From: Methanothermococcus thermolithotrophicus DSM 2095
GTDB lineage: Archaea > AGJL01 > Methanococci > Methanococcales > Methanococcaceae
Length of the DNA stretch: 64,000 nucleotides
Direction of reading: 5' to 3'
NCBI RefSeq assembly: GCF_946463545.1
Contig: NZ_OX296583.1
Coordinates: 558,001-622,000, forward strand
The notes under the pieces are model-generated. The model searched no databases and was not told the origin of the DNA. It saw nothing but the letters and a program-made list of their open reading frames with translations. This document shows positions 3,586 through 47,320 of the stretch, in pieces. The stretch's first letter is position 1. Each line of letters opens with the position of its first letter. A program made the translations under genes and the position numbers.

Positions 3586-3705
3586 GGTATCACCGAACAA
3601 AGTGAAGGTGAGCTATGAGATAAAAACCTTCGGTTTTGAGCAATGAAAACCATCAGGTTTTCATTCAATCCTAAGGATTTCATTCAACCTACTAAACCGT
3701 ATTTC
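3586..3705. repeat. Hairpin repeat, two-hairpin type
   Basis: Member of the window-wide hairpin family. A TCACC...GGTGA arm pair (3590-3611) is followed by the linker GCTATGA, then AAAACC-ttc-GGTTTT (3623-3637), GAAAACC-atca-GGTTTTC, and the terminator-like end ATTCAATC, repeated once more in shortened form. It occupies the hisI leader; read on the minus strand its end supplies the GGTGAT ribosome site of hisI. No ORF or other signal was seen in this gap. Confidence 0.75.
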
Positions 3706-3796
3706 TTTATAAAACTGCAAATATGATTATAAATATAAATTCTATAAATATCTTGAGAAAAGGATAATCAATTCAATCATATTCTGAGACTGTCTC

Positions 3797-4780
3797 TTAT
3801 TCTACTTTATATCCTTTGTTATTTCCAGTAGTTACTATGATCTCGCCTTCTATTCCATTTTCATCAAAAAACTTCTTTGAAGCTTCAATTATTATCTTCT
3901 TATCTCCAATTGAATATATGGTAGGTCCAAAACTGGACAAACCACTGTATGAAACATCCTGCAATGTTTTTAAAAGTTTTTTGACAGTTTCACTCTGAAG
4001 ATCAACCTCTACCTTCTTAAAACCTAAGTTTTGTATATTATTTATAACCTCTCCAAAGGAATTTAAATCTTTTTCAATTATTGATGGCATCATCTTCATT
4101 AGGATTAGATGGCATAGCTTTTGGGTTTCAGATAATGGGATAGGGCAGTATGTCTTAAATATATCTACTTCTTTGTTTCCATGTATATTTTTGCCCCTTG
4201 GTATCGTTAAAACTATATCCCAGTTAAAGTCATGCCTAAAAAGTATGGGCGCAGGCCTTACATTTTTTGACACAGAAGAAGGTCTGAAATCCTCTTTATC
4301 CTTGCCTGGTCCAAATGTGTGCCCCCCATCAACTATAAAACCTCCATTTTCAAATGCTGCAATACCAATACCTGATGTACCGCCTCTCCCAGTTATTTTT
4401 GCAATTTCGGTAGCGCTTAATTCTTTTCCGTAGATTAATGAGGTCAACTTTCCAGTTGAGATTGCCATCTGAGTACCACTGCCTAAACCAGTATGTGGAG
4501 GAATTATATTGCGTATTTTTAAAGATATCCCATCTTCATTTATATGGTTTAAAACCTTTTTTGCAGAATCGTAAATCCTTTTTTCCATATCCTCTTTCAT
4601 ACTTTTATTTAAATCAGCTTTTAAATCTATCTCTATCTCATCGCTTTCTTTACCTTCAATTACGAAATTTGGATAATCTAAGGCTACCCCTACACCACCA
4701 TCTACCCTTCCAATACTGCCGTTCAAGTCAATTAAACTCATGTGTATTCTTGAAGGGGAAGTTAACTTTAATTTCATCAT
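3797..4780 (-). CDS. mptG: Beta-ribofuranosylaminobenzene 5'-phosphate synthase
   Basis: First committed step of methanopterin synthesis: joins 4-hydroxybenzoate (or p-aminobenzoate) to PRPP with loss of CO2 and pyrophosphate. The 327-residue protein is a GHMP-kinase-fold enzyme; PPHTGLGSGTQ near residue 97 is the glycine-rich phosphate loop, with GRGGTSGIG and DGGHTFGPG as further family-specific segments. Two ATGs are adjacent (4780 and 4777); AGGTGAG lies better spaced for the second, a one-residue difference. Two other methanopterin genes, mptD (43013) and mptB (52057), occur in the window but not in the same operon. Confidence 0.93.
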   Translation of the reverse strand: MMKLKLTSPSRIHMSLIDLNGSIGRVDGGVGVALDYPNFVIEGKESDEIEIDLKADLNKSMKEDMEKRIYDSAKKVLNHINEDGISLKIRNIIPPHTGLGSGTQMAISTGKLTSLIYGKELSATEIAKITGRGGTSGIGIAAFENGGFIVDGGHTFGPGKDKEDFRPSSVSKNVRPAPILFRHDFNWDIVLTIPRGKNIHGNKEVDIFKTYCPIPLSETQKLCHLILMKMMPSIIEKDLNSFGEVINNIQNLGFKKVEVDLQSETVKKLLKTLQDVSYSGLSSFGPTIYSIGDKKIIIEASKKFFDENGIEGEIIVTTGNNKGYKVE

Positions 4781-4811
4781 CTCACCTAAACCTGAAACAC
4801 TCCAAATTATA

Positions 4812-5288
4812 CTATTCCTTCTCAGAAACCAGTACCTCTATCAAGTCCCCTCTTGTGACAATTCCAACAAGTTTTCCGTTTTCAACAACGGGAAGTCTCT
4901 TAATTTTATTTTTAATCATTATTTCAGCAGCTTCATTTATTGAAGTTTCGGGTGTAATTGTTATAACATCCCTTGTCATAGCTTCCCATACTTCGGTTTT
5001 TAGGGCATTTTTCATATCTTCTTTGAATTCTTCCATTTTTATAGCTGCTTTTAAAGGTAATTCAATTAAATCCAGTGGAGAAGGTAGTATTAAATCAAAT
5101 CTTTCATCATGGGTTGTAATTGTCTTTACAATATCACTTTCTGAAATGACCCCAACTATTTTACCATCTGCATCCACAACCGGAGCTCCACTTATTCTAT
5201 TTTTTCTAAATAAAGTTATGACATCTTCGATACGGTCATTTTGATTTACCGTTATTGGTTCCTTCATAACTGATCTCACTTCGATCAT
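4812..5288 (-). CDS. Two-CBS-domain protein
   Basis: A 158-residue protein made of a tandem CBS pair (Bateman module): first repeat about residues 1-58 (SVMKEPITV ... GAPVVDADGKIVGVISESDIV), second about 98-155 (AMTRDVITI ... RLPVVENGKLVGIVTRGDL). Such pairs bind adenosyl ligands (AMP, ATP, SAM) and act as sensors. No catalytic domain is attached, so the partner is unknown. It lies 31 bp downstream of nothing on its own strand but just upstream of mptG (gap about 30 bp), so the two may be co-transcribed. Confidence 0.9.
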   Translation of the reverse strand: MIEVRSVMKEPITVNQNDRIEDVITLFRKNRISGAPVVDADGKIVGVISESDIVKTITTHDERFDLILPSPLDLIELPLKAAIKMEEFKEDMKNALKTEVWEAMTRDVITITPETSINEAAEIMIKNKIKRLPVVENGKLVGIVTRGDLIEVLVSEKE

Positions 5289-5367
5289 ATACTCACCAGA
5301 AAATTTATCAACATATTAAAATATATATAACCTCTCTTTTAATATACTTATACTTATGGTGAAAAAA

Positions 5368-6540
5368 ATGCACGTAAGGATTAACAATGGAATAAGTGAA
5401 TGTGATATTCACTTAATAGGTACTGCCCATGTTTCCGACGAAAGTATACATAACGTGGAAAAAGCAATAATGGAAATAGATCCTGATTTAATTGCTGTTG
5501 AACTCGATAAAGACAGATTTCTTTCCATTATGAACAGCGGAAACTCAAAGAATGCGGATAATATACATAATATAGATATTTTAAAGATTATTAAAGAAGG
5601 AAAGATTGGGCTCTTTTTGATTCATACAATTTTAGCGAATTTTCAAAAAAAGATTGGGGAACAGTTTGGCATAAAACCAGGTAGTGAAATGAAAAAAGCG
5701 GTAGATTTGGCTATTTTATATAATAAACCTGTTTCACTTATAGACCGGCCAATAAACATTACTCTTTCAAGGGCCATGAATAAAATGACTTTAAAGGAAA
5801 AAATAGATGTTTTATTGGGGCTCCTAACTGAAAAAAACGATATTGAAATAGATGAAAAATCACTAAACAATATGATAAATAACGCCGAAGATTTAATTTT
5901 AATGTTAAAAGAAGTTTCACCAGCAATTTACGAAGTTCTTGTAGATGAAAGAGATAAGTTCATGGCAAAGAACATTTTTGAATCCAGTAAGGGAAAAGAA
6001 AAAATAGTTGCAGTTGTTGGGGCAGGCCATTTAAATGGAATTGCCAACTATTTAAGGGAACTTGAATCTGGAAAAAATATTGATTTAGGAGAGTTAATGG
6101 AAGTTAAAAAGAAGTCCAACATACTTGGAAAATTGGCGTCAATTGGTTTGGTTTTATTAATCATCTATGGATTTTATATGGCTTCTTCAAATTTAGATGT
6201 TTTAAAAAAACTAACTTTAGATTGGATACTTGTAAATGGAAGTCTTTCATCATTAGGTGTTTTAATCGCCAGGGGACGTATTCAAACTGCAATTGCAGCG
6301 TTTTTAGCTGCACCGATAACTTCCCTAATACCAGTTATTGGAGCAGGGTATATAGCAGGTCTTGTGGAGTTAAAATACAGAAAAATAACTGTTGAAGACA
6401 TAAAAGAATTATTTAACACTGAAGATTTTAAAAAACTAATTAAAAATAATGCAATGAAGGTACTAATAGTGGCTGCACTTGCAAATTTAGGAAGTGCCAT
6501 AGGTACCTTTTACTTTATACCAAGATTTTTAGGATATTAA
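5368..6540 (+). CDS. TraB/PrgY-family membrane protein
   Basis: A 390-residue TraB-family protein. N-terminal soluble part has the family hallmarks IHLIGTAHVS (GxxH motif), the Glu in AVELDKDR and a second histidine motif VVGAGHLNGI near residue 225; these make a metal-protease-like (Tiki/EreA-ChaN) fold. The C-terminal third contains several hydrophobic segments (around residues 255-275, 285-335 and 365-385), indicating membrane anchoring. Function in archaea is not established; bacterial relatives inactivate peptide pheromone. ATG 5356 is in frame, but GGTGA at 5358-5362 precedes ATG 5368, which is preferred. Monocistronic between divergent and convergent neighbours. Confidence 0.85.
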   Translation: MHVRINNGISECDIHLIGTAHVSDESIHNVEKAIMEIDPDLIAVELDKDRFLSIMNSGNSKNADNIHNIDILKIIKEGKIGLFLIHTILANFQKKIGEQFGIKPGSEMKKAVDLAILYNKPVSLIDRPINITLSRAMNKMTLKEKIDVLLGLLTEKNDIEIDEKSLNNMINNAEDLILMLKEVSPAIYEVLVDERDKFMAKNIFESSKGKEKIVAVVGAGHLNGIANYLRELESGKNIDLGELMEVKKKSNILGKLASIGLVLLIIYGFYMASSNLDVLKKLTLDWILVNGSLSSLGVLIARGRIQTAIAAFLAAPITSLIPVIGAGYIAGLVELKYRKITVEDIKELFNTEDFKKLIKNNAMKVLIVAALANLGSAIGTFYFIPRFLGY

Positions 6541-6603
6541 AAAATAAAAAACAAGGAAAAATTTTAAAAATATAGGTGTAATAAAAAAGTAAAATAAAAT
6601 AGC

Positions 6604-7908
6604 TTATAAAAGCTCTTTAACTTTGTCCATCATTCTTTTTAGGATTTCTTTATCTGACATTACATCTTCTGGAGGGTCAATGACTTTTTTAAGAGCGATT
6701 GGAACGCCATCCATCCTATAAGCGGTTCCTCCACATTCAACTCCAGCAATTGCCGGAGGTAGTATTATATTTGCCAGTTCTGTTGTTGGAGTTTGGTGGG
6801 GCTCCATCACTATTAAAGGAATTTCAACCATTCTCTCCACTGCCTTTTGAGGGAAGTGAGCTCCAGGATCTGATGCAAGGTTTAACATGGCATCAGCTTC
6901 TCTTCTCATTAACAGATCGGTTACACTTGTATCCCCTGGATTGAATATAGGGCTTCCACTTGAGTAATCAACACATAGTGGATAACCACTTATCCAGGTG
7001 CACACTTGGTTAAATCCATTCACATTGTAGTGTCCCCTCATCGGTATAAGTGTGAATTTTGTATGGGCATTTAAATCAATAATAAGTTCAATGGCATTGT
7101 CAATATTTCTGTGCTTACTTCCTGATTGGGTGACACCCATACCAAAGAACAAATTTCCAAATTGGGCATTTTTAAGCACATCTATTGCCTCATAAATAGT
7201 TTCCACAGGGATTCCTGCAATTTTTTCCCCTTTCAACTCAAACCCTTTCAATGCCGCCCTCATTGCACTTATTAACTCATAATCTTTATGAGGTTCGACT
7301 TGTAGGTGAACATCTGCTAACTTCGCAGTATCTGTTTTTCTCGGATCTACAACAATTAATGTTCTATCATTTCTCCCTCTTTCTCTGAAAAATCCTCTTG
7401 AAAATACACCATACCTACTCATGTGTCTTGGATGAGCATGCATTGGATTGCATCCCCAATAGATCACTACATCTGCCCTATTTTTTACCTCACCTAATGT
7501 ACAAATAGGATAACCTACATCCTGCAATGCCCAAACACTTGGTCCGTGGCATACTTCTGCAGTATTACTTACTACTCCTTTTACCTTTTCGGCCAATTCT
7601 ATCCCATACACGTGAGCATGACACTCTGTTGCTGAAAATCCATATATCAATGGTTTTTTGGCATTTACTAGTATTTCTGCCGCCTTCTCTATTGCAGTAT
7701 CCCAATCAACCTTTTTAAAATCGTCTTTTTTATTTTCCCTCATTAAAGGTCCTGTGTGTCTTGTAGAACCTTCTCTATGGGTAAATTTACTGTATCCAAT
7801 TCTGCATGCGTTCTTTGTCCCGATTATGTGATTACCTTCAACATAGCACTCTATGTCGTCACATAATGTTCCACAGAATGGACAAACCACATCTTTTATT
7901 ATTTCCAT
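6604..7908 (-). CDS. fwdB: Formylmethanofuran dehydrogenase subunit B, cysteine form
   Basis: Catalytic molybdenum/tungsten-pterin subunit of the enzyme that reduces CO2 onto methanofuran, the first step of methanogenesis. The 434-residue protein begins with the [4Fe-4S] motif CPFCGTLCDDI (residues 9-19) and has the metal-ligating residue in AEVCHGPSVW at Cys120. Methanococcal relatives include a version with selenocysteine at this ligand; here the codon is TGC-type, so this is the selenium-independent form. No fwdA, C, D, F or G gene is present: a lone B subunit, downstream of hdrA and vhc on the same strand, consistent with a replacement subunit used when selenium is short (inference). Ribosome site GGTGGTATT precedes the ATG. 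Confidence 0.93.
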   Translation of the reverse strand: MEIIKDVVCPFCGTLCDDIECYVEGNHIIGTKNACRIGYSKFTHREGSTRHTGPLMRENKKDDFKKVDWDTAIEKAAEILVNAKKPLIYGFSATECHAHVYGIELAEKVKGVVSNTAEVCHGPSVWALQDVGYPICTLGEVKNRADVVIYWGCNPMHAHPRHMSRYGVFSRGFFRERGRNDRTLIVVDPRKTDTAKLADVHLQVEPHKDYELISAMRAALKGFELKGEKIAGIPVETIYEAIDVLKNAQFGNLFFGMGVTQSGSKHRNIDNAIELIIDLNAHTKFTLIPMRGHYNVNGFNQVCTWISGYPLCVDYSSGSPIFNPGDTSVTDLLMRREADAMLNLASDPGAHFPQKAVERMVEIPLIVMEPHQTPTTELANIILPPAIAGVECGGTAYRMDGVPIALKKVIDPPEDVMSDKEILKRMMDKVKELL

Positions 7909-8138
7909 AATACCACCTTCATATGAAACATGAAAAAATATGGGAGCTCCAAGAAGGAGTTACAACTTTGATTTTGTTAATTCTCATGAATCGTAAAATC
8001 TGTTAGGATTTCACCAACCTCCAAAGGAGTGCTAAAACCCAAATGTTTCATTCAATCTTGAGTAAATATACATAAAATTAGGAATTAATCAACGGAATCA
8101 TAGATTCCGTTTTTAAAGTCTTAGATGATTAATTTGAG
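7909..8138. repeat. Gap with degenerate hairpin repeats
   Basis: 230 bp between hdrA and fwdB on the same strand. It contains decayed members of the hairpin family: AAATC-tgttag-GATTT near 7994-8009, CACTCC/GGAG pairings, the TTCATTCAATC end near 8046-8056, and GGAATCatAGATTCC near 8093-8108. One GAGCTC lies at 7944. No ORF was seen. The hairpins could attenuate read-through into fwdB, which is a guess. Confidence 0.55.
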
Positions 8139-10103
8139 TTATGCTGTATCCCTAAACATCCCTTCAATCTGTTTAAACAGTTGTATTGTTTTGAAGTGGT
8201 CTTGTTCTAATGCACCACTAGGACATCCTGCAGGACAGGTTCCACATCCTTTACACAGGGCTGAGATAACTTCAGCTACTACTTTACCGTCTTTTTCAAC
8301 CAATCTTGGAGCTCCGTATGGACATTGTTTTACACAAACTCCACATCCACCACAGATTTCTGCATCTACTGACGCAATTATTGGTTCAACTTCAACTTCT
8401 CCTTTAGCAAGTGGAATCGCAGCTCTTGAAGCAGCGGCAGAACCTTGTGCAACTGATGCAGGGATATCTTTTGGCCCCTGACAAGCTCCAGCAAGATAAA
8501 CACCGTCTGTTGCAGTATCAACAGGTCTTAATTTTGGGTGTGCTTCCATAAAGAACTGGTCAGGTGTTCTTGAAATACCCAATATTTTTTGGACCTCATC
8601 AGCTGATTTTGTTGGTACCATACCTACTGAGAGAACTACTAAATCATATTCTTTTTCAAGTATTTCTCCTAACAAGGTATCTTCTGCCCTAACTACAAGG
8701 TTTCCTGTTTCTGGATCTTCTATAACTTGTGATGGCCTTCCTCTCATGAATTTAATACCGTACTGTTTGGCACTTCTTTCATAGAACTCTTCGTATCCTT
8801 TGCTGAACGCCCTTATATCCATATAATAAATATCTATCTCGGTATCTGGTGATTTTTCCTTAATTAACTGAGAGTTCTTCATTGCATACATACAACAGAC
8901 GTTTGAACAATATTTGTTTCCAACTTTTGCATCCCTTGAACCAACACACTGGATAAATGCGATTCTTTTTGGTTTTTGCCCGTCACTTAACCTTATAACC
9001 TTTCCACCTGTAGGACCAGAGGCGTTAATCATCCTCTCCAATTCAAGTGCAGTTACAACGTTATCATATACTCCATATCCGTACTCTTCCCTAACTGTTG
9101 GATCAAATGCATCATAACCTATTGCACAAATTATCGTACCTACTTCAGCTTCTATAATTTCAGGTTCTTGATCAAAGTCTATGGCATTAGGCCCACAAAC
9201 TTTTGCACACAATCCACATTCTATACAGTGTTCTTTATCAATGGTGTATTTTGCAGGAACTGCCTGTGGAAATGGCTTATAGATGGCTTTTCTCATTCCA
9301 ATGCCCATATCAAACTCATTTGGAACATCTATTGGACATACTTCTGAACACTGCCCGCATCCAGTACATTTTGTTTCATCGATGTATCTTGCCTTTTTCA
9401 TTATTTTGACTTTAAAGTTTCCAACATATCCTTGGACATCTACAACTTCAGAATAGGCATAAAGTTTAACGTTTGGATGCTTTGCAACATCTACCATCTT
9501 TGGAGCTAAAATACAAATAGAACAGTCGTTTGTAGGGAATGTTTTATCAAGTTGGGCCATTCTTCCTCCAACAGAAGGAGTTTTTTCTACCAATATGGTT
9601 TCAAAACCCATATCTCCTAAATCTAGTGCAGTCTGAATACCTGCAACTCCCCCTCCAATAACCAGAGCTCTTTGTGTAACCCCTACTTTGATGAACTCTA
9701 AAGGTTCTAACAACCTTGCCTTTGCAACAGCCATTCTTACTAAATCTTTTGCCTTTTCTGTTGCTTTTTCTTTTTCATGCATGTGTACCCAAGAGCAGTG
9801 TTCTCTTATGTTCGCAAACTCAAATAAGAATGGGTTTAATCCTGCTTCAGCAACACACCTTCTAAATGTTGGCTCGTGTAATCTTGGAGAACATGCAGCT
9901 ACAACCACCCTGTTTAAGTTGTGTTCTTTGATGTCTTTTTTAATCATTTCTTGCCCAGGATCTGCACACATGTATTTGTAATCTCTTGCCACAACAACAT
10001 TCTTTAAGGTTTTAGCAAACTCGGTAACATCTGGACAGTCAACAGTCCCTCCGATGTTGACTCCACAATGGCAAACATATACGCCAATTCTTGGCTCTTC
10101 CAT
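8139..10103 (-). CDS. hdrA: Heterodisulfide reductase subunit A, cysteine form
   Basis: Flavin electron-bifurcating subunit of the HdrABC-hydrogenase complex that couples reduction of CoM-S-S-CoB to reduction of ferredoxin. 654 residues: N-terminal cysteine-rich domain, FAD-binding Rossmann loop [14 protein letters not shown] near 150, the inserted-cluster region with TNDCSIC (residues 191-197), and four [4Fe-4S] ferredoxin motifs, two mid-protein ([23 protein letters not shown]) and two C-terminal ([24 protein letters not shown]). The position that is selenocysteine in the sister isoenzyme reads as cysteine (family knowledge, from memory). A longer in-frame start at 10205 lacks a ribosome site; GGTGAT before MEEPRIG fixes 10103. 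It sits downstream of vhcB, fitting physical assembly with the Vhc hydrogenase. Confidence 0.94.
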
Positions 10104-10204: not shown

Positions 10205-10312
10205 AGTCTTTTCAAGCGATGGTAAAATCCGAAGAACCATATAATCCTTCATCTGCTCCGAAGTCGAAGCAAATCATCAACTTTCGTTTATAAATTCCTT
10301 TGGAATTTATGC
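10205..10312. repeat. Hairpin repeat between vhcB and hdrA
   Basis: Part of a 220-bp gap inside the presumed vhc-hdrA transcript. Clearest element is ATAAATTCC-ttt-GGAATTTAT (10290-10298 / 10302-10310), a nine-pair stem with a three-base loop; the same stem with a different flank and loop occurs at 16557-16577. Further weak pairings (TCCGAAG / CTTCATC) lie upstream. No ORF. Confidence 0.6.
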
Positions 10313-10323
10313 TTTATTTCAGC

Positions 10324-16429: not shown

Positions 16430-16634
16430 ATGCTGATCTTTGTCTCGAAGACTTAACTGTAGAGCTCGTTGAATAAATATTCATGTTTATAACCACCAAT
16501 CGAATTGTAGTTTCTTACTACCCGTTTCCCGACAAATCTTCGATTTGTCTAAATCTGTAAATTCCAAAGGAATTTACTTCGACACTTGAATGCTCAGCCA
16601 AATTTTGCTTAATCATTAATAGGAAGGTGAGATC
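16430..16634. repeat. Hairpin repeats inside the frc operon
   Basis: 205-bp gap between frcD and frcG. Two perfect hairpins with three-base loops: GACAAATC-ttc-GATTTGTC (16531-16549) and GTAAATTCC-aaa-GGAATTTAC (16557-16577). One GAGCTC at 16462. The frcG ribosome site GGAAGGTGAG ends the gap. No ORF was seen. The stems are long enough to affect read-through within frcADGB, but there is no direct sign that they do. Confidence 0.65.
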
Positions 16635-18261: not shown

Positions 18262-18410
18262 AATCTTTAATTACTCACGGCTTTACCGTGATAATGCAAA
18301 AAGTTTCGTGAGTTCGACGAAACTTCGTTGGATGATTAAGCTTTCAGTTTTGGGATCCAACACTTTTTATAAAAGGGTTGGAAGGAGAATGGATTACCAG
18401 TTCCTTATTA
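18240..18410 (+). repeat. Insertion flanked by a 21-bp duplication of the frcB 3' end
   Basis: Two identical 21-base copies (18240-18260, 18390-18410) encoding the C terminus GLPVPY flank 129 bp of hairpin-family DNA. The insert contains CACGG-ctttac-CGTG-like and GTTTCG-tgagttcga-CGAAAC pairings, then a 32-base hairpin beginning TGGGATCCAACAC (18351-18382) that is nearly identical to 51823-51853 on the other strand. The likely history is an insertion at the stop codon with duplication of the target; copy two, with TAA, would be the original end. Confidence 0.7.
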
Positions 18411-18494: not shown

Positions 18495-18674
18495 TTAACA
18501 TACCCTTGGGACAGGATCCCACATGAAACTTTTAAAAAAAGTTGAACGAAAACGTTTAGGTTTTCGTTGCATTGAAAGTTTTCAACTTTCAAAGCTTGAA
18601 ATTGCTTTGCAATTTCATGCTCGAAACAAAGTTTCGATTTCATCAAAATTAACATACCCTTGGGATAGGGTCCC
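18495..18674 (-). repeat. Insertion flanked by a duplication of the hypE 3' end
   Basis: The last codons of hypE on the minus strand (DPIPRVC plus stop, about 24 bp from 18649) recur 154 bp downstream at 18495-18518, encoding DPVPRVC plus stop with two substitutions. Between them lie four hairpins: GAAAAC-gtttag-GTTTTC, GAAAGTT-ttc-AACTTTC (18574-18590), GAAATTGC-ttt-GCAATTTC (18598-18616) and CGAAAC-aaa-GTTTCG (18622-18636). Same architecture and size as the neighbouring frcB duplication, facing the opposite gene. Confidence 0.7.
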
Positions 18675-25871: not shown

Positions 25872-26801
25872 CTATTTATTCAGCCTTTCCCTTATAGGCG
25901 TTAAAATTTTTATGATTTCCTCAGAAACTACGTTTTTTAAGTCCATAGGATGTAAACCCTCAATATATGCTGATTCTAATTCTTCATAGCTGTTAAAAGT
26001 TACATCTCCACCGAATTTTTCAGGTCTTTTTACGGTAACCGGATATTCCAAATAGTACTTTGCGATTTCCATTATAGGGTTACCTTCAACAACTTTAATT
26101 GGACAGTATGCCTTTTTTATCTTTGATTTTATTGTATTTGGTTCATCATCTACTGCTATAAAGTTTCCTTTTGAAGATGACATTTTACCTTCCCCATCTA
26201 ACCCAGTAAGTACTGGGTTATGTATACAAACCGGAGCTCTGAATCCCATACTTGGTAAAACTTCCCTTGCAAGCATGTGGATCTTTCTCTGTTCCATTCC
26301 TCCAACTGCCACATCAACACCTAAGTGTTTAATGTCGTTCACCTGCATGAGGGGGTAAACCACTTCTGCAACTTTCGGGTTATCATCGTCCCTTGCTATA
26401 ACTTCCATACTTCTTCTCGCTCTTTTTAATGTGGTTTTTAATGCAAGTTGATATACGTCCAATGTGTATTCCCTTTCAAGTTGGAATTCACTACCGTAAA
26501 TATAGGTAGCATTTAAACCCATGGCTTCAAATACTCTTTTGTTGTATTCTGCCAATTCCCTTATTTCTTCCATTGTTCCTTTCTGGTTCAGGTAGGCGTG
26601 TAAGTCAGCTAACAGTATAATAACTTCAAAACCTGCATTTTGTAAATCTATCATCTTCTTAATTTGAAGGTAGTGCCCCAGATGTATTTTTCCACTGGGC
26701 TCAAAACCTATATATGCCTTTTTTTCTTTCTTGTTTATTACTTCCTTTAGTTCTTCAACTGATACAACTTCTAAAGCGTTTTTTAAAATATCCTCAATCA
26801 T
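25872..26801 (-). CDS. tyrS: Tyrosyl-tRNA synthetase
   Basis: Class I aminoacyl-tRNA synthetase of 309 residues, the short archaeal form lacking the bacterial C-terminal S4 domain. Signature motifs: [15 protein letters not shown] (HIGH-type) near residue 32 and GKMSSSKGN (KMSKS) near 204. The frame stays open to 26858, but that extension only translates a hairpin repeat; AGGTGA five bases upstream of ATG 26801 sets the start. This ribosome site is the last part of the repeat at 26806-26858. Confidence 0.95.
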
Positions 26802-26805: not shown

Positions 26806-26858
26806 TCACCTGAACGAAGTGAAGGTGAGTTATAAAAAACCTTCGGTTTTTTATTCAA
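26806..26858. repeat. Two-hairpin repeat abutting the tyrS ribosome site
   Basis: Plus-strand order: TCACCT...AGGTGA arms (about 26806-26829), linker GTTATA, AAAAAACC-ttc-GGTTTTTT (26834-26852), end ATTCAATC. On the minus strand the unit ends in AGGTGA, which is the tyrS Shine-Dalgarno. Same placement as at hisI. The remaining gap to 27123 contains only A+T-rich promoter-like DNA. Confidence 0.75.
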
Positions 26859-27123
26859 TCCCTCTACCTAAATTATAAAATCAATAAAAATGATAAAATA
26901 ACCATACATATATTTAATATATTAGTATTGTGACATATAGAATGTAAGGTTTTTATATTTTCTCAATTGCGGTAAAGTTGTGATATAATAGATTTTATGT
27001 CTTACTACTAAAACCTGACCTTTAAGATTTTATCCACAACCAATTCCCATACTACTATTTTGGATATCATTTAATTACTATTACTATAATTTATTAGTTT
27101 ATTGATTATACGTGGTGCTGCCT

Positions 27124-32709: not shown

Positions 32710-34296
32710 TTACCCAAAGAGTTTCAAAACTTTAGGAATGTTATCAATAATATCCATTGAAGTGTAATAATATCCCTTTTTTTTCAGCATTAAATCTCCA
32801 CAGTAACCATTGATAAAAGCTCCACAACAGGACGACACAAAAGGTTCATTTTTAGCAAACAATGCTCCAATAATCCCACAAAGAACATCACCAGTACCCC
32901 CAACAGTCATTCCAGGATTACCGGTTTTATTTATCTTGATCTTGTGTCTATTGAATATTATGTCGTATCTTCCCTTTAAAACTATCGTTGAATTAAAGGT
33001 ATTTTGTTCAATATACTCTTTCATATATTCAAACTCTCCTTTGTGGGGTGTAAAAATAAAGTTATCCTTAAATTCAAAATTTGAATAATCTATTACTTTT
33101 ATAGCATCTGCATCAATAACAACTTTTTTATCAGTCTTTTTAAGGAAAGAGTTTACAAATTCCTTAGTTCTATTATTCACTCCTAAACCACTACCCAAAA
33201 CTATACAATCATATTTTTTGGAAACCGACAGTATTTCATCAATATGCTCCTCTCCAACATAATCGCCTTCTAATTCATAACCCATTAATTCAGGATAATT
33301 CCTTAATGCATCCATAACATTCCTTACAGAAGCTACGGTTACTAAATCGGCCATTTTTGAAGCTGCCAGTGCGGATAAAATCGGAGCTCCGAAAAACTCC
33401 TTTGAACCGCCAACAACTAAAACTTTTCCATTCTCTCCCTTATGTGAGTCTGAACCTCTTTTAATCAGTGTTTTAAAGTCTCCAGTACCGACGATAAACT
33501 CTGCAGATTTTGGAATGCCTATTGACTTAACAACTAAATTATCATCATTTGAATTCCTACTGGATTCGAAAACCGAAGGTTTTCGTAACCTACTGGATTC
33601 GAAAATCTCTGATTTTCGTAATATGGTCTTTCTCTTGTGGAATGTAACAACCTTGTCGGCATTTAGATCTCCAGTTTCAACGTCCACACTTACTATTTTT
33701 AGGGATTCTTTAAATTCTTTTTTTATTCTGTTTAATTCAGTTACTGCAGTTTTAAAAGGCTCCCTTAATTCCCCCTTAACTCCAGTTCCCAACATTGCAT
33801 CTATTACAATAACTTCGCCTTTTTTTGTATTTTGTTCAATCCTTTCAATTATGTCCAAAATATCATTGGGTAATATAACTTCTTCAATGGTTAAATCCCC
33901 AAATTCTGAAATGTTTTTTAAAATCTTAAAATTCTCCCTACTTTCATAGGTTTTTATATTCTCGCTCCTGCCGAGTAAAATCAGGCTAACATCATAACAC
34001 TTAGAAAGATGTCTGGCAACTACAAACCCATCCCCGCCATTATTTCCTGTCCCACAAAAAACATATATTTTTTCGTTGGAATTAAGAATTTTTAAGAGCT
34101 CTTCATACACTGCCCTTCCAGCATTTTCCATAAGTAAAATTTTTGGAATTCCAAGATATTCACAGTTGTTATCTATTACTTCCATTTCTTTTGGGGTTAT
34201 GACATCCTTTTCTTTAATATTTAACTTATTGACTATGTACCTAAACATTTGTAGGTCTTTTTGAGGTACTTTATTGTCGATAGTTTCTTTTTTCAT
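32710..34296 (-). CDS. nnrDE: Bifunctional NAD(P)H-hydrate epimerase / dehydratase
   Basis: Repairs damaged nicotinamide cofactors (NADHX and NADPHX). 528 residues: N-terminal epimerase (YjeF_N) with LMENAGRAVYEE and GTGNNGGDGFVVARHL, C-terminal ADP-dependent dehydratase (YjeF_C) with VVGGSKEFFGAP, LGSGLGVNNRT, FTPHKGEFE and NPGMTVGGTGDVLCGI. Oddities: the epimerase loop usually reading like VDVPSGLNADTG is here VDVETGDLNADKV, and residues 226-247 are two tandem 11-residue units (LRKSEIFESSR, LRKPSVFESSR) encoded by a 2 x 33-bp hairpin repeat inserted in frame near the domain junction. ATG preceded by GGGGAT. Confidence 0.92.
   Translation of the reverse strand: MKKETIDNKVPQKDLQMFRYIVNKLNIKEKDVITPKEMEVIDNNCEYLGIPKILLMENAGRAVYEELLKILNSNEKIYVFCGTGNNGGDGFVVARHLSKCYDVSLILLGRSENIKTYESRENFKILKNISEFGDLTIEEVILPNDILDIIERIEQNTKKGEVIVIDAMLGTGVKGELREPFKTAVTELNRIKKEFKESLKIVSVDVETGDLNADKVVTFHKRKTILRKSEIFESSRLRKPSVFESSRNSNDDNLVVKSIGIPKSAEFIVGTGDFKTLIKRGSDSHKGENGKVLVVGGSKEFFGAPILSALAASKMADLVTVASVRNVMDALRNYPELMGYELEGDYVGEEHIDEILSVSKKYDCIVLGSGLGVNNRTKEFVNSFLKKTDKKVVIDADAIKVIDYSNFEFKDNFIFTPHKGEFEYMKEYIEQNTFNSTIVLKGRYDIIFNRHKIKINKTGNPGMTVGGTGDVLCGIIGALFAKNEPFVSSCCGAFINGYCGDLMLKKKGYYYTSMDIIDNIPKVLKLFG
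33556..33621. repeat. In-frame tandem hairpin repeat inside nnrDE
   Basis: Two 33-bp units (33556-33588 and 33589-33621). Each begins CCTACTGGATTC and ends GTAA; the middle is a hairpin whose stem differs between units but stays self-complementary: GAAAACC-gaa-GGTTTTC in the first, GAAAATC-tct-GATTTTC in the second. The same CCTACTGGATTC lead occurs at 47217-47228 inside a pilin gene. Length is 66 bp, a multiple of three, so the host frame is kept. Confidence 0.85.
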
Positions 34297-34389
34297 TCTA
34301 ATCCCCTTTCATCATATATCCTAAAACCGTATTATAGTGTGTACGAATTTATAGTCTCGGACATAACAAACTTAAATATATCCTTCAAA

Positions 34390-34600
34390 ATATACCTACT
34401 CAACTTCGTTGAGTAGGTATCGGGTTTTGGAATCACCAACGAAGTTGGTGAGCTATGAAAACCGTTAGGTTTTCGTTCAATCAAAACCTCTCGACGAAAC
34501 CGAAGGTTTCGTGAGTTCGACAAAAACCAAAGGTTTTTGTGAATCGACAAATCACTTTGTGATTTGTCTCGATCAGCAAATCGAAGATTTGCTTCGATTT
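34390..34600. repeat. Array of about seven hairpins
   Basis: Largest cluster of the hairpin family, in the 573-bp gap between nnrDE and the acetyl-CoA synthetase. In order: TACCTACTCAAC-ttc-GTTGAGTAGGTA (34393-34419), TCACCAAC-gaa-GTTGGTGA (34433-34451), linker GCTAT, GAAAACC-gtta-GGTTTTC (34457-34474), GTTCAATC, then GAAACC-gaa-GGTTTC, ACAAAAACC-aaa-GGTTTTTGT, GACAAATCAC-ttt-GTGATTTGTC and AGCAAATC-gaa-GATTTGCT. Linkers resemble GTGAGTTCGAC or GTGAATCGAC. The rest of the gap (34601-34869) is A+T-rich promoter-like DNA for the downstream gene; no ORF. Confidence 0.8.
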
Positions 34601-34869
34601 TTTAAAAGGTTTTGTCCTACACTATACATTCATTATAATTCCAATAAGAAATTTAAAGAAAATTAAAAAAATTTAACTTAAATTTAAACATAATAAATTA
34701 ACACCGAATTTACTAAATCTCAATAATTTCTTTGACGCATACTTGATATAATCCAACATACAGATATATACACAATGTAGGATACTAAAGTATCTATATC
34801 TCAAACTATATAATTTTTTTATATTTTAAAATAAAAAATAAAATTATAACCGTTTATCGGGGGGAAAAT

Positions 34870-37063: not shown

Positions 37064-37115
37064 GGCTCCTATTCACTAACTTAATCCCGTCTGGGTTCTT
37101 AAGTTAGCAAGAGCC
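37064..37115 (-). promoter_or_regulatory. SECIS element
   Basis: Archaeal selenocysteine insertion element read on the minus strand. The core is a nine-pair helix CTAACTTAA / TTAAGTTAG (37099-37107 / 37076-37084), then the diagnostic asymmetric loop GAA opposite a single A, then a short GC helix CCC/GGG closed by the loop AGAC. GGCTC and GAGCC (37111-37115 / 37064-37068) extend the base. This matches the archaeal consensus fully. The 5' arm overlaps the stop codon and last coding base of the selenoprotein gene instead of lying wholly in the 3' untranslated region. Confidence 0.93.
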
Positions 37116-37403
37116 GCCACCAAATCCTTTAACAGCTAAGCGAGGTCCACCAAATAGTGATTTTTTCAGTATTATGTGGACTTCATTTAAAAACTGCTTA
37201 GCTATTTTGTCCAGATATATTTTGAAATCTCCTTCATAAATTAATTCATCGCCTTCTTTTGGAGATTTCAAAACATCTATTGAGAATTTAGGTCCTGCTC
37301 ATCCAAACCCTTCAAAGAATATTATTAAAGAATCGGAATCTCCATGCTTCAATTTCTCCTTAATAAAATTCATTGCATCATCAGATATAGTTACTGGTAC
37401 CAT
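37104..37403 (-). CDS. HesB-like selenoprotein (Sec at codon 35)
   Basis: Small iron-sulfur-biogenesis-like (HesB/IscA family) protein of 99 residues. It reads through one in-frame TGA at 37299-37301, in the context EGFG-Sec-AGPKF, the place of the first conserved HesB cysteine; the C terminus GFGGGSC supplies the remaining thiol. Evidence that the TGA is selenocysteine rather than a broken gene: frame and HesB-like sequence continue on both sides, AGGTGAT precedes the ATG, and a perfect archaeal SECIS follows. HesB-like selenoproteins are known in methanococci. Function is not established; by family it may carry or assemble Fe-S clusters. Standard translation splits this gene. Confidence 0.93.
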
Positions 37404-40741: not shown

Positions 40742-40755
40742 AAATAAGAACTAAA

Positions 40756-40891: not shown

Positions 40892-40962
40892 AATAACACT
40901 AACATATATAAACTCATAATTAATTTAATAATTAATATTATAATAAAAACAGGAGGGAAATT

Positions 40963-41301: not shown

Positions 41302-41359
41302 TATCTAAGTTTTTTTATTATTGTTTTATTAATTTTTTTATCTTTTTTAAGGTGCTTTT

Positions 41360-42358: not shown

Positions 42359-42360
42359 GA

Positions 42361-42900
42361 TTATGGATCCTGTATTTTAACATCATACTGACAAAAATCA
42401 TCTCCAAGACCTATACAATGGGTCTCGGTTGCCAGTACCTTTTTACACAATATATTTTCAAAACATCCTGCAATAAAGCCTCCTTCAAAATCACATAAAG
42501 TTTTTCCAACGTTAGGCAAACCCGTGCAAGTTATACAGTCATTTATCCTTATTTTTAATGGATTTTCGCTTATTATTTCAATATAACCCACATTATTACA
42601 TTTGCAGTATTCTATAAACCCCCATACTGAAGATAAGCTTAAAGACCTTCCAAACTGTTTTCCTATCGAATACAATAGGGAACCTACTTCCATATCCACA
42701 TTTCCCAAGTAATTTACAGGGATGCAACGAATAAATCTAAATAAACATATGTCAAATTCCCTTTCAGGAGTATTTCTATTTTCTTTTGATTGATTGACCA
42801 TAGATAGTATTTTCATATAAGATCTACAGAGCTCACCAGTGACTTCATCTAGGGGTATATTCAGACTTCTTGCAGTCTGAACTTTATATCTATTGTTCAT
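42361..42900 (-). CDS. V4R-domain (4-vinyl reductase-like) protein
   Basis: 179 residues. C-terminal two thirds resemble the V4R domain, a small-molecule-binding fold found in methanogens and in regulators: GSLLYSIGKQFGRSL, CITCTGLPNVGKTLCDFEGGFIAGCFE, TETHCIGLGDDFCQYDV. Seven to eight cysteines suggest metal or thiol chemistry. N-terminal 60 residues are unclassified. Start at 42900 where AGGGGATG fits; the frame runs open to 42948. Two bases after the convergent DHH gene. Confidence 0.8.
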   Translation of the reverse strand: MNNRYKVQTARSLNIPLDEVTGELCRSYMKILSMVNQSKENRNTPEREFDICLFRFIRCIPVNYLGNVDMEVGSLLYSIGKQFGRSLSLSSVWGFIEYCKCNNVGYIEIISENPLKIRINDCITCTGLPNVGKTLCDFEGGFIAGCFENILCKKVLATETHCIGLGDDFCQYDVKIQDP

Positions 42901-43012
42901 TATTTTCATCCCCTTTAAAACCATATAGTTATATGAGGAATATTGCATATAAAATGCGTGTGTTTAATCATAAAATTCTTAAAAGCAGTTTACGATTAAA
43001 AGGGAGGATATC

Positions 43013-43387
43013 ATGGTAAAAAAACTTGAAAAAGATGAGATATTTGACTCCTACTTCAAAAACTTAAGTGACCGAGAGAGGGCAGTTTTTGAGGGTGGAA
43101 TCACACTTGGAGCTCTATTCCATCAGTTTGTCGGAGCTCCTGTAAGTTTAAATACGAAAGAATCTCTGGAAAAAGCCATGGAAGAGTCTATGAAAAATCA
43201 GCCGTTTGTAGATGATATTGAAGTAAAAATAGTCGGAGACCTTAAAAAAGATTCCTATGTGTCCCTAACTGGGGAAATGCTGGATGTTAAACTTAAAATA
43301 AGGGTAAAAGAAACTGTTGCTATTTTAAAATTAAATTATGTTAAAGAAATTGACTATCCTTTGATGTATGTTGAAAAAATTGAATAA
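43013..43387 (+). CDS. mptD: Archaeal dihydroneopterin aldolase
   Basis: 124-residue enzyme of methanopterin synthesis, cleaving 7,8-dihydroneopterin to 6-hydroxymethyl-dihydropterin and glycolaldehyde. Recognised by ERAVFEGGITLGALFHQFVG near residue 22, the archaeal family distinct from bacterial FolB. GGGAGGAT precedes the ATG. Divergent from the V4R gene. Its 3' end runs directly into a hairpin repeat. Confidence 0.82.
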   Translation: MVKKLEKDEIFDSYFKNLSDRERAVFEGGITLGALFHQFVGAPVSLNTKESLEKAMEESMKNQPFVDDIEVKIVGDLKKDSYVSLTGEMLDVKLKIRVKETVAILKLNYVKEIDYPLMYVEKIE

Positions 43388-43438
43388 AAAATCCTGTAAG
43401 GGATTTATAGCTCACCTTCGTTTCACTCAGGTGATTAA
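43388..43438. repeat. Two-hairpin repeat after mptD
   Basis: Minus-strand reading gives the standard unit: TCACCTGAGTGAAACGAAGGTGA arms, linker GCTATA, AATCCC-tta-CAGGATT hairpin, then a degraded ATTCAATT end. In plus orientation it lies immediately after the mptD stop and may act as a transcription terminator. Confidence 0.65.
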
Positions 43439-43459
43439 ATAAAAAATTTATTTAATTTT

Positions 43460-45235
43460 TTAATTTATCCTAATGCCATATCCCCATGTATTTTCATTTT
43501 TTCCTGCCAACATGTCTATTATCGATGGTGAACTGTTATCCTCCACAAAGTAAGGGTTATAACTAATATCTCCTATTTCTCCGTAGTGAGTGCTATAATC
43601 TCTTGGAGGAGATATGTAAATAAGCTTTTTGTCAGTAATGACTATAGGCTCTTTTTCAGCATACTTTCTTACTCTGAAGTTGTCAAAGTATATATCTTGA
43701 CCTGGAGAGTTAAATCCCGCGGAAGTACCAAGTTCAAAGTAATTTCCATGGGTATCCGGTACATTATAATTTATCATCCAATCTGGCTCATTGTTATTTA
43801 GGTAATCGTCTATTGTATAATATTTACCAGATACCATTCTATTATTTACTATTTGTATTTTTACCCTGTACCAAGTAAGGATACGTGGTACTTCATTAGC
43901 ATTGATTTCAAGCCGAGCTCTATGAATGTCCAGAATATTACTTTTGCCGGCACTACCATTTTCTGGATATTCATGACTTATCTGTAAATTATCAAAATCA
44001 TTATCATATGCTAACCAGATTAAATCGCCATTTGGTATGAATTGAAGAGCAGCCCCATTTCCATCCACTCTCCCTCCCAATTCCAACGTATAGAATTCAT
44101 CAGGATGCCTGTCATCGTTGAAGTAGCTCTTATTTGCAAAATATCCTACCATTATATTTGGGGTGTTATATGAAGTACTATATCCCTTGGCATCGACTTC
44201 AATTATATAACTATCCAAGTTCGTATTATCCTGCGAAATCATTCTAGCAACGGGTGGAGCCTTCTCATACTGAATCATTTGTTTATTATACAATTCATTA
44301 TATAGCGGACTATCAACCTCGCCATAGTTCCAACCTGAATTAATGGATGTGTAATTCCATTTGTAGTTTATGGAATTTTTATCCTCAAAATCATCAAACA
44401 ACTCAAATACCAAATCCCCATTACTGGATGTACTATAATAGGTTGAAACAATTTTCACTACTGCATTACCATTTGCATCAATATTGGGCACTTTTATCCA
44501 AACTATGGCTTTATTGGCCACATTATCCCAATATTCTATCCAATATGGAATCGTGTTGTTATTTTCATCATAGAACCCCAAACCTATTCCATCAGGGTCA
44601 CTACTAAAATCATAATTGGAGTTATCTAATATTATCTTTACCTGAAAATCAGTTAAACTATAGTTGTTTGGATTGTAGATTGTAATAAAACCCCTGCCAG
44701 ATGATTTTACATAGTGATATGCATCTATAACAGTTTTTACAGTGCAGTATTGATAGGAATTTATAGATTTTGACTTAAATACCCCATCTTTAGATAACGT
44801 ATAATTAAATGAATAACCTACTTTAAAAGTAAATCCATCCACCATTGATATATTGGTTATGTTAAAATCATAGGTTAGATTATATCCTGATTTACCATAT
44901 TCCTTACTAACATTTTTCAAATAGTTATTAACCATTTTTGACACGTTAGTTTCTAAAAACAATAGAACCTCGTCTGTACTATTAAAAAATGGGTCTGTTT
45001 CTCCCGAATTATACTTATTTATAACCCTGAGCTCTGCATCGTTTAGTACCTTGTTAAATACGATAGGAAGGGAAGTTTCAACAGCATTTTCAACTGTTGA
45101 TGATTTTAAATCCACAGAGGATGCCTTCATTTCATTTAAAACTTGATCTTTTTGAATATCAATTGTTTGATAAAGTAAAGTACCCGTAAGGAACAACAAT
45201 AAAACAAGTGTAGTCATTGTTTGAGATAGGTACAT
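43460..45235 (-). CDS. Secreted DUF2341-type protein of the pilus cluster
   Basis: 591 residues. N-terminal hydrophobic segment (residues 6-22, TMTTLVLLLFLTGTLLYQ) anchors or exports it; the rest is extracytoplasmic, rich in Asn, Asp, Ser, Tyr with many N-glycosylation sequons (NYT, NNT, NVS). Residues about 180-270 match a DUF2341 module (VKIILDNSNYDFSSDPDG, GLGFYDENNNTIPYW), followed by a concanavalin-like jelly-roll region (about 280-530). Likely a cell-surface adhesin or minor pilus component. GGTGAT before ATG; 3 bp after the stop of the upstream gene. Confidence 0.8.
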   Translation of the reverse strand: MYLSQTMTTLVLLLFLTGTLLYQTIDIQKDQVLNEMKASSVDLKSSTVENAVETSLPIVFNKVLNDAELRVINKYNSGETDPFFNSTDEVLLFLETNVSKMVNNYLKNVSKEYGKSGYNLTYDFNITNISMVDGFTFKVGYSFNYTLSKDGVFKSKSINSYQYCTVKTVIDAYHYVKSSGRGFITIYNPNNYSLTDFQVKIILDNSNYDFSSDPDGIGLGFYDENNNTIPYWIEYWDNVANKAIVWIKVPNIDANGNAVVKIVSTYYSTSSNGDLVFELFDDFEDKNSINYKWNYTSINSGWNYGEVDSPLYNELYNKQMIQYEKAPPVARMISQDNTNLDSYIIEVDAKGYSTSYNTPNIMVGYFANKSYFNDDRHPDEFYTLELGGRVDGNGAALQFIPNGDLIWLAYDNDFDNLQISHEYPENGSAGKSNILDIHRARLEINANEVPRILTWYRVKIQIVNNRMVSGKYYTIDDYLNNNEPDWMINYNVPDTHGNYFELGTSAGFNSPGQDIYFDNFRVRKYAEKEPIVITDKKLIYISPPRDYSTHYGEIGDISYNPYFVEDNSSPSIIDMLAGKNENTWGYGIRIN

Positions 45236-45238
45236 TTT

Positions 45239-45790
45239 TTAATCACCATAAACCTTCAGTGTTACTTTTATAGGAGTATTATTTTTAAAATAAAAAATGG
45301 CTTTTTTGTAATGATAAGAACGGTAAATATCCTTTTTCAAATGGTTATATGCATCCTCCTCGCTTATAAAGTGCTTATCAGTAATTTTTAATTCGTTATC
45401 GTCTCCATAAACACCATACCATCCCTCAGTTCTGTTCATTAGAATTACAGCTGAAACTAGTACAAAATTACTGGTGTTTATTCCTTCGTTGGTGTTTGTT
45501 CCATTGACGCTGTAGTTTCCTATTGTTAAATTGTAATTTCTAAACCTTATCCTGTTTTTAATTACCTTTTCTGCCACATCAGCATTGTTGTTATTCATAA
45601 GCAGTATTGCAGTTTCAAGGGTTCCATCTGTGACAAGAGTTTTCAGTTGATACGTAACCTTATCGTGTAAAATGTTTGTTTTTATCGCATCCATATAGTT
45701 ATCCGTGTGTTCCACCATAGAAGAAGTAAAAAAAGCCATTCCAACTAACATAATAAGAACAGCAGCTACTAAATCACTATCAAACAGCAT
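45239..45790 (-). CDS. Pilus-cluster protein with N-terminal membrane anchor
   Basis: 183 residues of unknown family. One hydrophobic stretch near the start (DLVAAVLIMLVGMAFFTSSMV), then an extracytoplasmic domain with several N-glycosylation sequons (NLT, NYS, NGT). No class III signal motif, so it resembles a pseudopilin-like minor component only by size and topology. Tightly packed between its neighbours (3 and 10 bp), pointing to one transcript. Confidence 0.75.
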   Translation of the reverse strand: MLFDSDLVAAVLIMLVGMAFFTSSMVEHTDNYMDAIKTNILHDKVTYQLKTLVTDGTLETAILLMNNNNADVAEKVIKNRIRFRNYNLTIGNYSVNGTNTNEGINTSNFVLVSAVILMNRTEGWYGVYGDDNELKITDKHFISEEDAYNHLKKDIYRSYHYKKAIFYFKNNTPIKVTLKVYGD

Positions 45791-45800
45791 ATAAAATCAC

Positions 45801-46649
45801 CTAATTCATATCAACAATACCTGATATATTGTAAGGCCTGAGCTGTGCCACATAAATTGTAGAGGATTGATTGTAAACAATGGTTATATTAACAGGTATG
45901 CCATTTGCGGTACTCAATAATCTAATTTCATTAGGTTCGTAACCATCTGAATTATAAGTTGCTATAACCTTTCCAAACTCTGTTATACTCGGCGTATTAC
46001 TTACAGTTAATTTAAATGGCACTCCATTAACAGAAAATATGGCTATTTCATTGGAGGATGTATTGATGGTGGATGCGTTAATATAAACGAGCTCTGATGA
46101 ATTTCCAACTGCAAAATATAATATATCCCCTTCTTTTAGAATTTCATATATTCTACTCGTATTTGAATATCTATATGTTTTTATAGGTACAAGAAGGTTT
46201 CTAGTCTTTACATACGAGTTGTTACCATATTCAGCGATATATTCTATAGATGTTGTACTAACATTTGATGTATAACCACCTATTGAAACATTAAAATGAA
46301 CACATTTCACTGGATCCTCTGTATTTGTATCCAAACTATCTATGGCATAAATATCAAATGTCCCAGGTATTTTCTTAGAGTTACCGTATCTAATTGTTAG
46401 GTTGCCTAAAAATCCTTTATAACTATCATTATAATTATCTGAAGGAAATTCATGCTCTTTAAATAACATGTCTGTCATCAAGTTAGCTTTTTCAAAATCT
46501 TCAATATTTCTTCTTTCCTCCTGAAAAGATAGGTAATTATGAGAATACGTAAAGTATGTTATGTAAAATAGTACTACAAACAACATGGCCACTACTACAG
46601 CCTCATAGGTAAATACATAACCTTTATTTGATTTTAATTTTGCTAACAT
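45801..46649 (-). CDS. Pilus-cluster membrane-anchored protein
   Basis: 282 residues of unknown family. After a basic N terminus (LAKLKSNKGYVF) comes a hydrophobic segment EAVVVAMLFVVLFYITYF, then a glycosylation-sequon-rich extracellular part. The KGYVFTYEAV region is similar in layout to a class III prepilin cleavage site (Gly followed by aromatic and Glu at +5), though the Q at +1 is missing. Start moved to 46649, where GAGGGG sits seven bases upstream; the ORF opens at 46697. Confidence 0.72.
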   Translation of the reverse strand: MLAKLKSNKGYVFTYEAVVVAMLFVVLFYITYFTYSHNYLSFQEERRNIEDFEKANLMTDMLFKEHEFPSDNYNDSYKGFLGNLTIRYGNSKKIPGTFDIYAIDSLDTNTEDPVKCVHFNVSIGGYTSNVSTTSIEYIAEYGNNSYVKTRNLLVPIKTYRYSNTSRIYEILKEGDILYFAVGNSSELVYINASTINTSSNEIAIFSVNGVPFKLTVSNTPSITEFGKVIATYNSDGYEPNEIRLLSTANGIPVNITIVYNQSSTIYVAQLRPYNISGIVDMN

Positions 46650-46750
46650 AATACCCCTCAATAACATATATCCTAAAAACCTCTCTCCATATAACAAGTA
46701 AATATATCAAATATCAATAAACTTTAAAATTTATTAAAAAAGTTCTTTAA

Positions 46751-47320
46751 TCATTTAATTCTTACGGTAAGGTTTTTATACACATAAAACTCCCCAAATG
46801 ATATGTTCACAATGTTTTGAGGTAAATTAAGACCACTGGGGGCTTTTCCTGTAATATGTATATAGACGCCATTTTCATCATATTCTGGCGTAAATATTAC
46901 ATTTGTTTCATTCTTAACTTCTATTTTTTTATCTGAGAAATAAATAGTATAATTTAAATTCCCCATAGATTTAAAAGTTGTATTTATGGCGACTTCCTTT
47001 GAATAAGAGGTCAATACATAATTTTCAAAGACATCAATTGTTGCATGTGCCCGTTCAGCCTTCTCGGATTCCTTAAAACTATTTGCAGTATTTAGCACAT
47101 TGTAACCTATAAGAGAAAATACAATTAAAAGAAACAAAATAGCGATTACGGCGTCTAGAGATACTTGCCCTTTTATACCACTCTTCGAGTTTTTGTTCAA
47201 TCTTTGATTTTTGTAACCTACTGGATTCGAAAACCACCACGATAGTGGTGGGCTACAAAAACTCTTTGAGTTTTTGTTTAATCTTTGATTTTTGTAACCT
47301 TTGGAAAATAGTTTCCACAT
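46751..47320 (-). CDS. Class III signal-peptide pilin-like protein with repeat-extended N terminus
   Basis: 189 residues. The processing site reads GIKG-QVSLDAVIAILFLL (residues 48-66), the methanococcal prepilin pattern with Asp in place of the usual Glu at +5, followed by the hydrophobic assembly helix. Normally about ten residues precede the site; here about fifty do, because a 39-bp hairpin repeat occurs twice in frame (two copies of GYKNQRLNKNSKS) with another hairpin between. The extension stays basic, as a signal n-region should. ATG at 47320 with GATGTGAT upstream; there is no ATG after the repeats. Confidence 0.82.
   Translation of the reverse strand: MWKLFSKGYKNQRLNKNSKSFCSPPLSWWFSNPVGYKNQRLNKNSKSGIKGQVSLDAVIAILFLLIVFSLIGYNVLNTANSFKESEKAERAHATIDVFENYVLTSYSKEVAINTTFKSMGNLNYTIYFSDKKIEVKNETNVIFTPEYDENGVYIHITGKAPSGLNLPQNIVNISFGEFYVYKNLTVRIK
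47180..47299. repeat. Duplicated 39-bp hairpin repeat inside a pilin gene
   Basis: Copies at 47180-47218 and 47261-47299 (plus strand, beginning ACTCTTCGAG and ACTCTTTGAG) differ at two bases. Each contains AATC-ttt-GATT. Between them are CCTACTGGATTC, also seen in nnrDE, and the hairpin CCACCAC-gata-GTGGTGG with linker GCTAC. The 81-bp offset is a multiple of three and no stop codon arises on the minus strand. Confidence 0.85.

Follow-up and report, generated by a model that had tools for sequence, protein, structure and literature searches.

Hairpin units in the window

We analysed a 64,000-nucleotide stretch of the genome of Methanothermococcus thermolithotrophicus DSM 2095, referred to here as the window (positions 558001-622000 of the 1,706,496-bp contig NZ_OX296583.1; the present genome, labelled G000, is ~1.7 Mb), in which a hairpin-linker-hairpin design recurs. 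Read in gene sense, the main module of this design, the two-hairpin unit, has the structure ATTGAA-H2-TAGC-H1, where the hairpin H2 mostly has a loop of three bases and the hairpin H1 is most often TCACC-loop-GGTGA. As the initial annotation of the window had noted, three-base loops prevail (40 of 63 hairpins), with TTC (22) and GAA (11) in the lead; in tandem units, the "TTCAATC end" that it described is really the linker TTCAA followed by TC, the first two bases of the next hairpin. It had also placed one design at all of ten or more sites. This holds for five of them, and most of the others carry different modules of the same system, namely the TCGA-linked array (class B), a 33-bp coding unit (class D) and a 120-bp multi-hairpin element. 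The features of the window are as follows:

3590-3669, minus strand: two-hairpin unit with a nested extra hairpin (R1, 34.6 bits)
8009-8057, minus strand: at most a probable decayed two-hairpin unit, judged from the sequence only and not found by the model at E ≤ 0.01
10290-10310, no strand: lone hairpin of uncertain class with a 9-bp stem and the loop TTT (hairpin scan)
16531-16583, no strand: two class B (TCGA-linked) hairpins, recognised by sequence
18298-18325, no strand: class B remnant with the linker GTGAGTTCGAC, recognised by sequence
18525-18644, plus strand: full 120-bp multi-hairpin element ending in TTTCATC (pattern search of the genomes)
26806-26859, minus strand: two-hairpin unit at the start of the tyrosine-tRNA ligase gene (R1, 59.9 bits)
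33556-33621, minus strand: two tandem 33-bp class D units encoding LRKSEIFESSRLRKPSVFESSR, in-frame in the NAD(P)HX epimerase/dehydratase gene (32713-34296, minus strand)
34350-34626, no strand: carrier repeat with the ends TATAGT..ACTATA and with a two-hairpin unit and a class B array inside (compared with loci L009, L010 and L011 and with 14 copies)
34433-34482, minus strand: two-hairpin unit within the carrier repeat (R1, 48.2 bits)
34490-34597, plus strand: class B array of four hairpins within the carrier, absent at the same place in nine other carrier copies
43379-43434, plus strand: two-hairpin unit between convergent open reading frames (ORFs) (R1, 55.9 bits)
47178-47283, minus strand: two-hairpin unit (47234-47282; R1, 48.0 bits) combined with class D sequence; by its translation, the composite lies in-frame close to the start of a pilin-like ORF (46751-47320, minus strand)

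The units nest within each other, form tandem arrays and ride in larger carrier repeats and TnpB transposons. The 120-bp element has a second, near-identical copy at G000:1215280, and its terminal sequence GAAACTTTTA..AAAAGTTGA occurs in eight Methanococcales genomes (the present one and seven others) from three genera, with no match for the reversed pattern; several of these eight genomes also hold complete 70-bp versions, GAAAC-..-H2-GTAGC-H1-TTTCATC. The stop codon of the ORF at 43013-43387 is supplied by ATTGAATAA of the unit at 43379-43434, and the C-terminus of the encoded protein may be altered.

Abundance and stem covariation

Perfect hairpins (stem ≥7, loop 3-9) number 74 in the window; three simulated sequences of matching dinucleotide statistics have 40-43, and the surplus consists of three-base loops (25 versus 3, 10 and 6 in the simulations). 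We searched the present genome and other Methanococcales with a covariance model of the hairpin-linker-hairpin unit, built from sequences whose loops were padded with N to equal length; at most 150 candidates were scored per genome, so that counts may be low. The loci read were the matches of the searches with their surrounding stretches. In the present genome, at least 87 matches were found at E ≤ 0.1, where ~0.1 would be expected by chance, the best reaching 6e-11, and the exact two-linker pattern yielded 12 matches against 0 for the reversed pattern. Units also occur in relatives: among 36 Methanococcales genomes, 13 contain model matches at E ≤ 1e-3, and genome G028 has at least 14 at E ≤ 0.1 as well as complete 70-bp units with the same linkers. 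The absence of units outside the Methanococcales rests on a model search of one genome (G036) and on an exact-pattern search of 25 genomes, in which the few matches outside the family did not resemble hairpin units. No Rfam family matched in the window at the gathering threshold.

These genome-wide counts refute the notion that such hairpins arise by chance in A+T-rich DNA or are ordinary transcription terminators, and it now has practically no chance of being correct. The units at 43379 and 18525 do sit between convergent genes, but other copies precede gene starts or lie within ORFs, the linkers are conserved, and neither the E-values nor the failure of the reversed pattern fits such an origin.

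The two arms of the stems change together, as had been proposed from the copies in the window. In 48 distinct copies from the present genome, 91.3% of the stem cells pair versus 77.5% after shuffling, and double-sided changes affect 13 of the 17 stem pairs; the covariation score is 0.321, compared with at most 0.076 when the partners are slid by 1-3 columns. The independent set, made up of copies from G004, G015 and G009 only, repeats the result (0.364 versus 0.125 shuffled), with the qualification that both alignments were fitted to the model and somewhat favour it. The H2 stems are highly varied, with 40 different ones among 63 hairpins.

Filled and empty sites

Comparison of orthologous loci uncovered both filled and empty sites, as anticipated for a mobile family. 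In G000, G004, G012, G002, G016 and others, the ATG of a UPF0179-like gene is preceded by one GGTGA, representing the empty site, whereas in G009 and G015 two tandem units bounded by GGTGA occupy this position, and the last GGTGA is again four bases away from the ATG. The NAD(P)HX-repair protein of the present genome carries 22 extra residues, corresponding to the two 33-bp units, which are missing from the orthologs read; its counterparts in G004, G015 and G009 share a different two-hairpin insert of ~16 residues elsewhere in the protein. In the carrier repeat, the two-hairpin unit is at the same place in all 14 copies read, whereas the class B array beside it is present in five and absent from nine, including one member of the otherwise almost identical pair L066/L065. 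By these sequence comparisons, which combine empty orthologous gene starts, filled and empty carriers and in-frame inserts missing from orthologs, the units are mobile. The initial reading of the hairpins as a non-autonomous palindromic element family is upheld, together with strong covariation, empty sites and presence in other Methanococcales.

Insertion at Shine-Dalgarno sites

With gene starts taken from the ORFs, 10 of 47 copies in the present genome have the GGTGA of H1 ahead of a start codon whose ORF spans at least 60 codons, eight of them at a spacing of exactly 4 nt; at random positions, an ATG with such an ORF is found at 4 nt in 0.33% of cases, and the opposite end of the unit faces a start codon in none of the 47 copies. 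In the window, the Shine-Dalgarno sequence of hisI (phosphoribosyl-AMP cyclohydrolase; 3188-3583, minus strand) is the GGTGA of the unit at 3590-3669, located 6 nt before the ATG, and that of the tyrosine-tRNA ligase gene (25875-26801, minus strand) is the GGTGA of the unit at 26806-26859, with a spacing of 4 nt. Elsewhere, aksF likewise begins at the GGTGA of a unit, and the start of the MCM gene coincides with the end of a tandem array. The aksF gene (L004:1482-1534, L148:786-1901; ~77.1-78.0 kb of G000) appears to carry both a two-hairpin unit at its Shine-Dalgarno sequence and a 33-bp unit in its coding sequence.

Because the unit ends in a GGTGA of its own, insertion within GGTGAT keeps the motif at the old distance from the start codon. 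The unit junctions therefore explain the Shine-Dalgarno location without special targeting; the units may either seek such sites or simply survive there. GGTGA as a required target was considered and set aside: copies away from Shine-Dalgarno sequences share, by eye, only AT/ATT at the junction, and GGTGA belongs to the element and to some of the targets.

In-frame units within genes

The initial annotation had held that the family was not explained by any gene in the window. The family itself stands, but many copies coincide exactly with ribosome-binding sites, and others lie within genes and are translated in the gene's frame. Class D, which encodes YENQRFSNPVG or LRKSEIFESSR, occurs at 11 sites in the present genome and at one in G007, with none in the other 20 family genomes searched. 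It is in-frame in the genes for methionyl-tRNA synthetase (MetRS; two copies), Trm5b (two), AksF, a UPF0146 protein (three) and the NAD(P)HX-repair protein, as well as in a metallo-beta-lactamase-fold protein and the pilin-like ORF. In alignments with solved homologs, the inserts fall between conserved blocks, at query residues 283-313 versus 284-289 in MetRS and 64-95 versus 51-58 in Trm5b. Class D and other units that preserve the frame are read through, apparently leaving the host genes functional.

A copy of the main module is also in-frame in a HepT-like RNase ORF (L003:1196-1672, plus strand), at the point where the family match stops, between LYNGLR and NAIVHKY. The insert hits what looks like the RNxxxH active-site motif, and the RNase is probably inactivated, although the ORF is still open. 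Several further proteins contain residues read from hairpin units. RACo-like ferredoxin-domain proteins of G000 and G004 (L070:2-1474, minus strand, and L078) closely resemble each other and contain in-frame hairpin inserts at one shared position; this suggests that the insert was inherited or that the gene was transferred. The first ~25 residues of a gamma-carbonic-anhydrase-like protein (L067:1152-1688, plus strand) derive from a hairpin unit, its homology to solved structures beginning at residue 26, and the N-terminal part of a DDE transposase fragment (PF01609) in G004 (L077:2003-2350, plus strand) is likewise read from one.

How the arms change together

Stem covariation may result from selection for RNA pairing or from copying at the DNA level. 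In the 14 copies of the carrier repeat, whose units presumably go back to a single insertion, there are 159 differences affecting both arms and 33 affecting only one, while 42 double differences would be expected if the arms were independent. Departures from Watson-Crick pairing in H2 comprise 3 G-U and 4 A-C pairs, that is, no wobble excess. Pairs of near-identical hairpins with three-base loops include eight exact loop inversions (~five independent), seven single substitutions and no double substitution; in one case, an otherwise identical hairpin of the two full 120-bp elements of the present genome (L214 and L220) differs by an inverted loop, TTT versus AAA. Given the double-arm differences, the loop inversions and the absence of the wobble excess that would be expected for a selected RNA, DNA-level copying of the arms is favoured over RNA selection.

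Bacteria and plastids are known to mutate by template switching at quasi-palindromes and by inversion of hairpin loops. Such events probably make the arms change together here: one arm would be re-copied from its partner at the DNA level, and the loop occasionally flipped.

The alternative, that the units are RNA regulatory elements in which TCACC-loop-GGTGA hides the Shine-Dalgarno sequence as a translational switch or thermometer and RNA pairing is selected, gains from the ten or more copies in which the GGTGA of H1 is the Shine-Dalgarno sequence and from the predicted pairing of that sequence, which for the majority of copies decreases from 37 to 65 C. It is nevertheless distinctly unlikely: the same covariation appears in carrier copies that have no downstream gene, G-U pairs are not in excess over A-C, copies reside within ORFs and at transposon ends, and the predicted accessibility of the Shine-Dalgarno sequence is uneven among copies. 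As for an RNA thermometer in particular, the fold energies were equivocal.

What moves the units

A resident transposase of the RAYT/IS200 type, suggested at the outset as the source of mobility, was not found: the Y1 tyrosine transposase (RAYT, PF01797) has no match in G000, which leaves a resident RAYT there unsupported, and intact Y1 TnpA is present only in G003 and G029 among the 36 Methanococcales genomes. The idea that the units are REP-like elements (repetitive extragenic palindromic, REP) moved by such an enzyme draws on their similar scale and palindromic design, on the two related genomes with intact TnpA and on the GTAG preceding H1 in copies with an outer C-G pair in H2 (28/48). 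However, the G of this GTAG is the end of the variable stem and becomes A in copies with a U-A pair, and the present genome, the richest in copies, has no Y1 transposase, so that the idea is unsupported for the present genome and, on the whole, unlikely.

The TnpB transposons offer another candidate source. All 13 genomes with model matches at E ≤ 1e-3 fall within the 17 of 36 that possess TnpB (hypergeometric 1e-6), and units lie at the ends of TnpB transposons in G004, G003, G015, G028 and G030, as if they were derivatives of these ends (the omegaRNA region). Yet the unit at L204 is an insertion in the 3' end of TnpB, because the TnpB copies at L196 and L203 lack it; the two TnpB loci read in the present genome are also without a unit, and both phylogeny and the copies carried by TnpB confound the co-occurrence. 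We thus regard such an origin as highly unlikely. The more specific version, an origin from the right ends, had been raised by matches beside TnpB in G026 and G030 and is weakened by the same unit-less copies. We take the TnpB transposons to be carriers of the units. Dispersal would be carried out in trans by a hairpin-recognising enzyme, perhaps of the IS200/IS605 type and now lost from the present genome, or by another enzyme.

Collectively, these results make it likely that the units are modules of one family of mobile palindromic elements in the order Methanococcales, very small and non-autonomous, which persist at harmless sites, have their arms copied at the DNA level and depend on a mover acting in trans. 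Several points weigh against this reading. The loop inversions amount to only about five independent cases and the G-U and A-C counts (3 and 4) are small; the neutrality of the insertions is judged from their position; most genomes that bear elements have no Y1 TnpA or only a broken one; and the comparison covered one strain of the species, so that the evidence of mobility concerns past insertions. On balance, the chances seem about even for the stronger proposition of a class of mobile elements that carry a portable Shine-Dalgarno sequence as their 3' hairpin arm and can therefore insert into the ribosome-binding sites of essential genes (TyrRS, MCM, hisI) with translation preserved; in these archaea, an active DNA-level process would copy their hairpins arm to arm and flip the loops.

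A HesB-like ORF

A HesB-like ORF of 99 codons also lies in the window (37104-37403, minus strand). Its codon 35 is an in-frame TGA (..FFEGFG-TGA-AGPKF..), and a hairpin, CTTAAGAACCCAGACGGGATTAAG, is located on its 3' side. Rfam gave no match at this ORF or its hairpin. Probably, it encodes a HesB-like selenoprotein with an archaeal selenocysteine insertion sequence (SECIS).

Comparison with known systems

The family illustrates how selfish DNA of very small size can settle in the most constrained parts of a compact archaeal genome, by bringing its own ribosome-binding motif or by keeping the frame. It allows two questions to be tested: whether compensatory changes in repeat hairpins reflect selection or the copying of DNA, and by what means palindromic repeats move where RAYT is missing. 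It also carries a warning, as stem covariation in such repeats is not proof of a functional RNA.

Among known systems, the palindrome-associated transposable elements (PATEs) and other IS200/IS605 derivatives of halophilic archaea have palindromic ends and are associated with genomes containing TnpB; by comparison, the units described here are inserted in TnpB transposons (L204) and are also found at some TnpB ends. The double-hairpin elements of fungal and algal mitochondria, thought to be mobile, consist of two hairpins with a conserved linker, but they are organellar, and the comparison is one by analogy. Rickettsia and Wolbachia palindromic elements (RPEs and WPEs) are, like the units, short palindromes in-frame in essential genes, and in-frame insertion in conserved protein genes with absence from orthologs is seen here in the NAD(P)HX-repair gene, MetRS and Trm5b. 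They differ in domain of life, sequence and length, and the CGTC tag in which RPEs end (PMC3733652) is not part of the two-hairpin consensus, the ends of which are ATTGAA and GGTGA.

Bacterial REPs are short hairpins in many copies, with families that differ by alternative complementary stem bases and with some members within genes (PMC3733652). The units resemble them as short palindromes of high copy number. Nevertheless, REP systems have a RAYT, which the present genome lacks, and the GTAG tag of REPs is not invariant here, being replaced by ATAG where the outer H2 pair is U-A (16/48); GTAG repeats were reported in bacterial phyla only (survey in PMC3733652). The units work like Rickettsia palindromic elements and REPs, but without a CGTC tag and without RAYT.

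The closest likeness is to the palindromic repeats of Methanocaldococcus jannaschii (Suyama 2005), which are described as having coding potential, some being fused in-frame into protein genes (PMC2229807, PMC2996958). Like the units, they come from the same order, are palindromic and are in part in-frame in protein genes. Judging from these published descriptions, the units likely belong among these repeats. Beyond what those descriptions cover, the present analysis extends the picture to insertion at Shine-Dalgarno sequences, loop inversion, the 33-bp class D and spread across the order.

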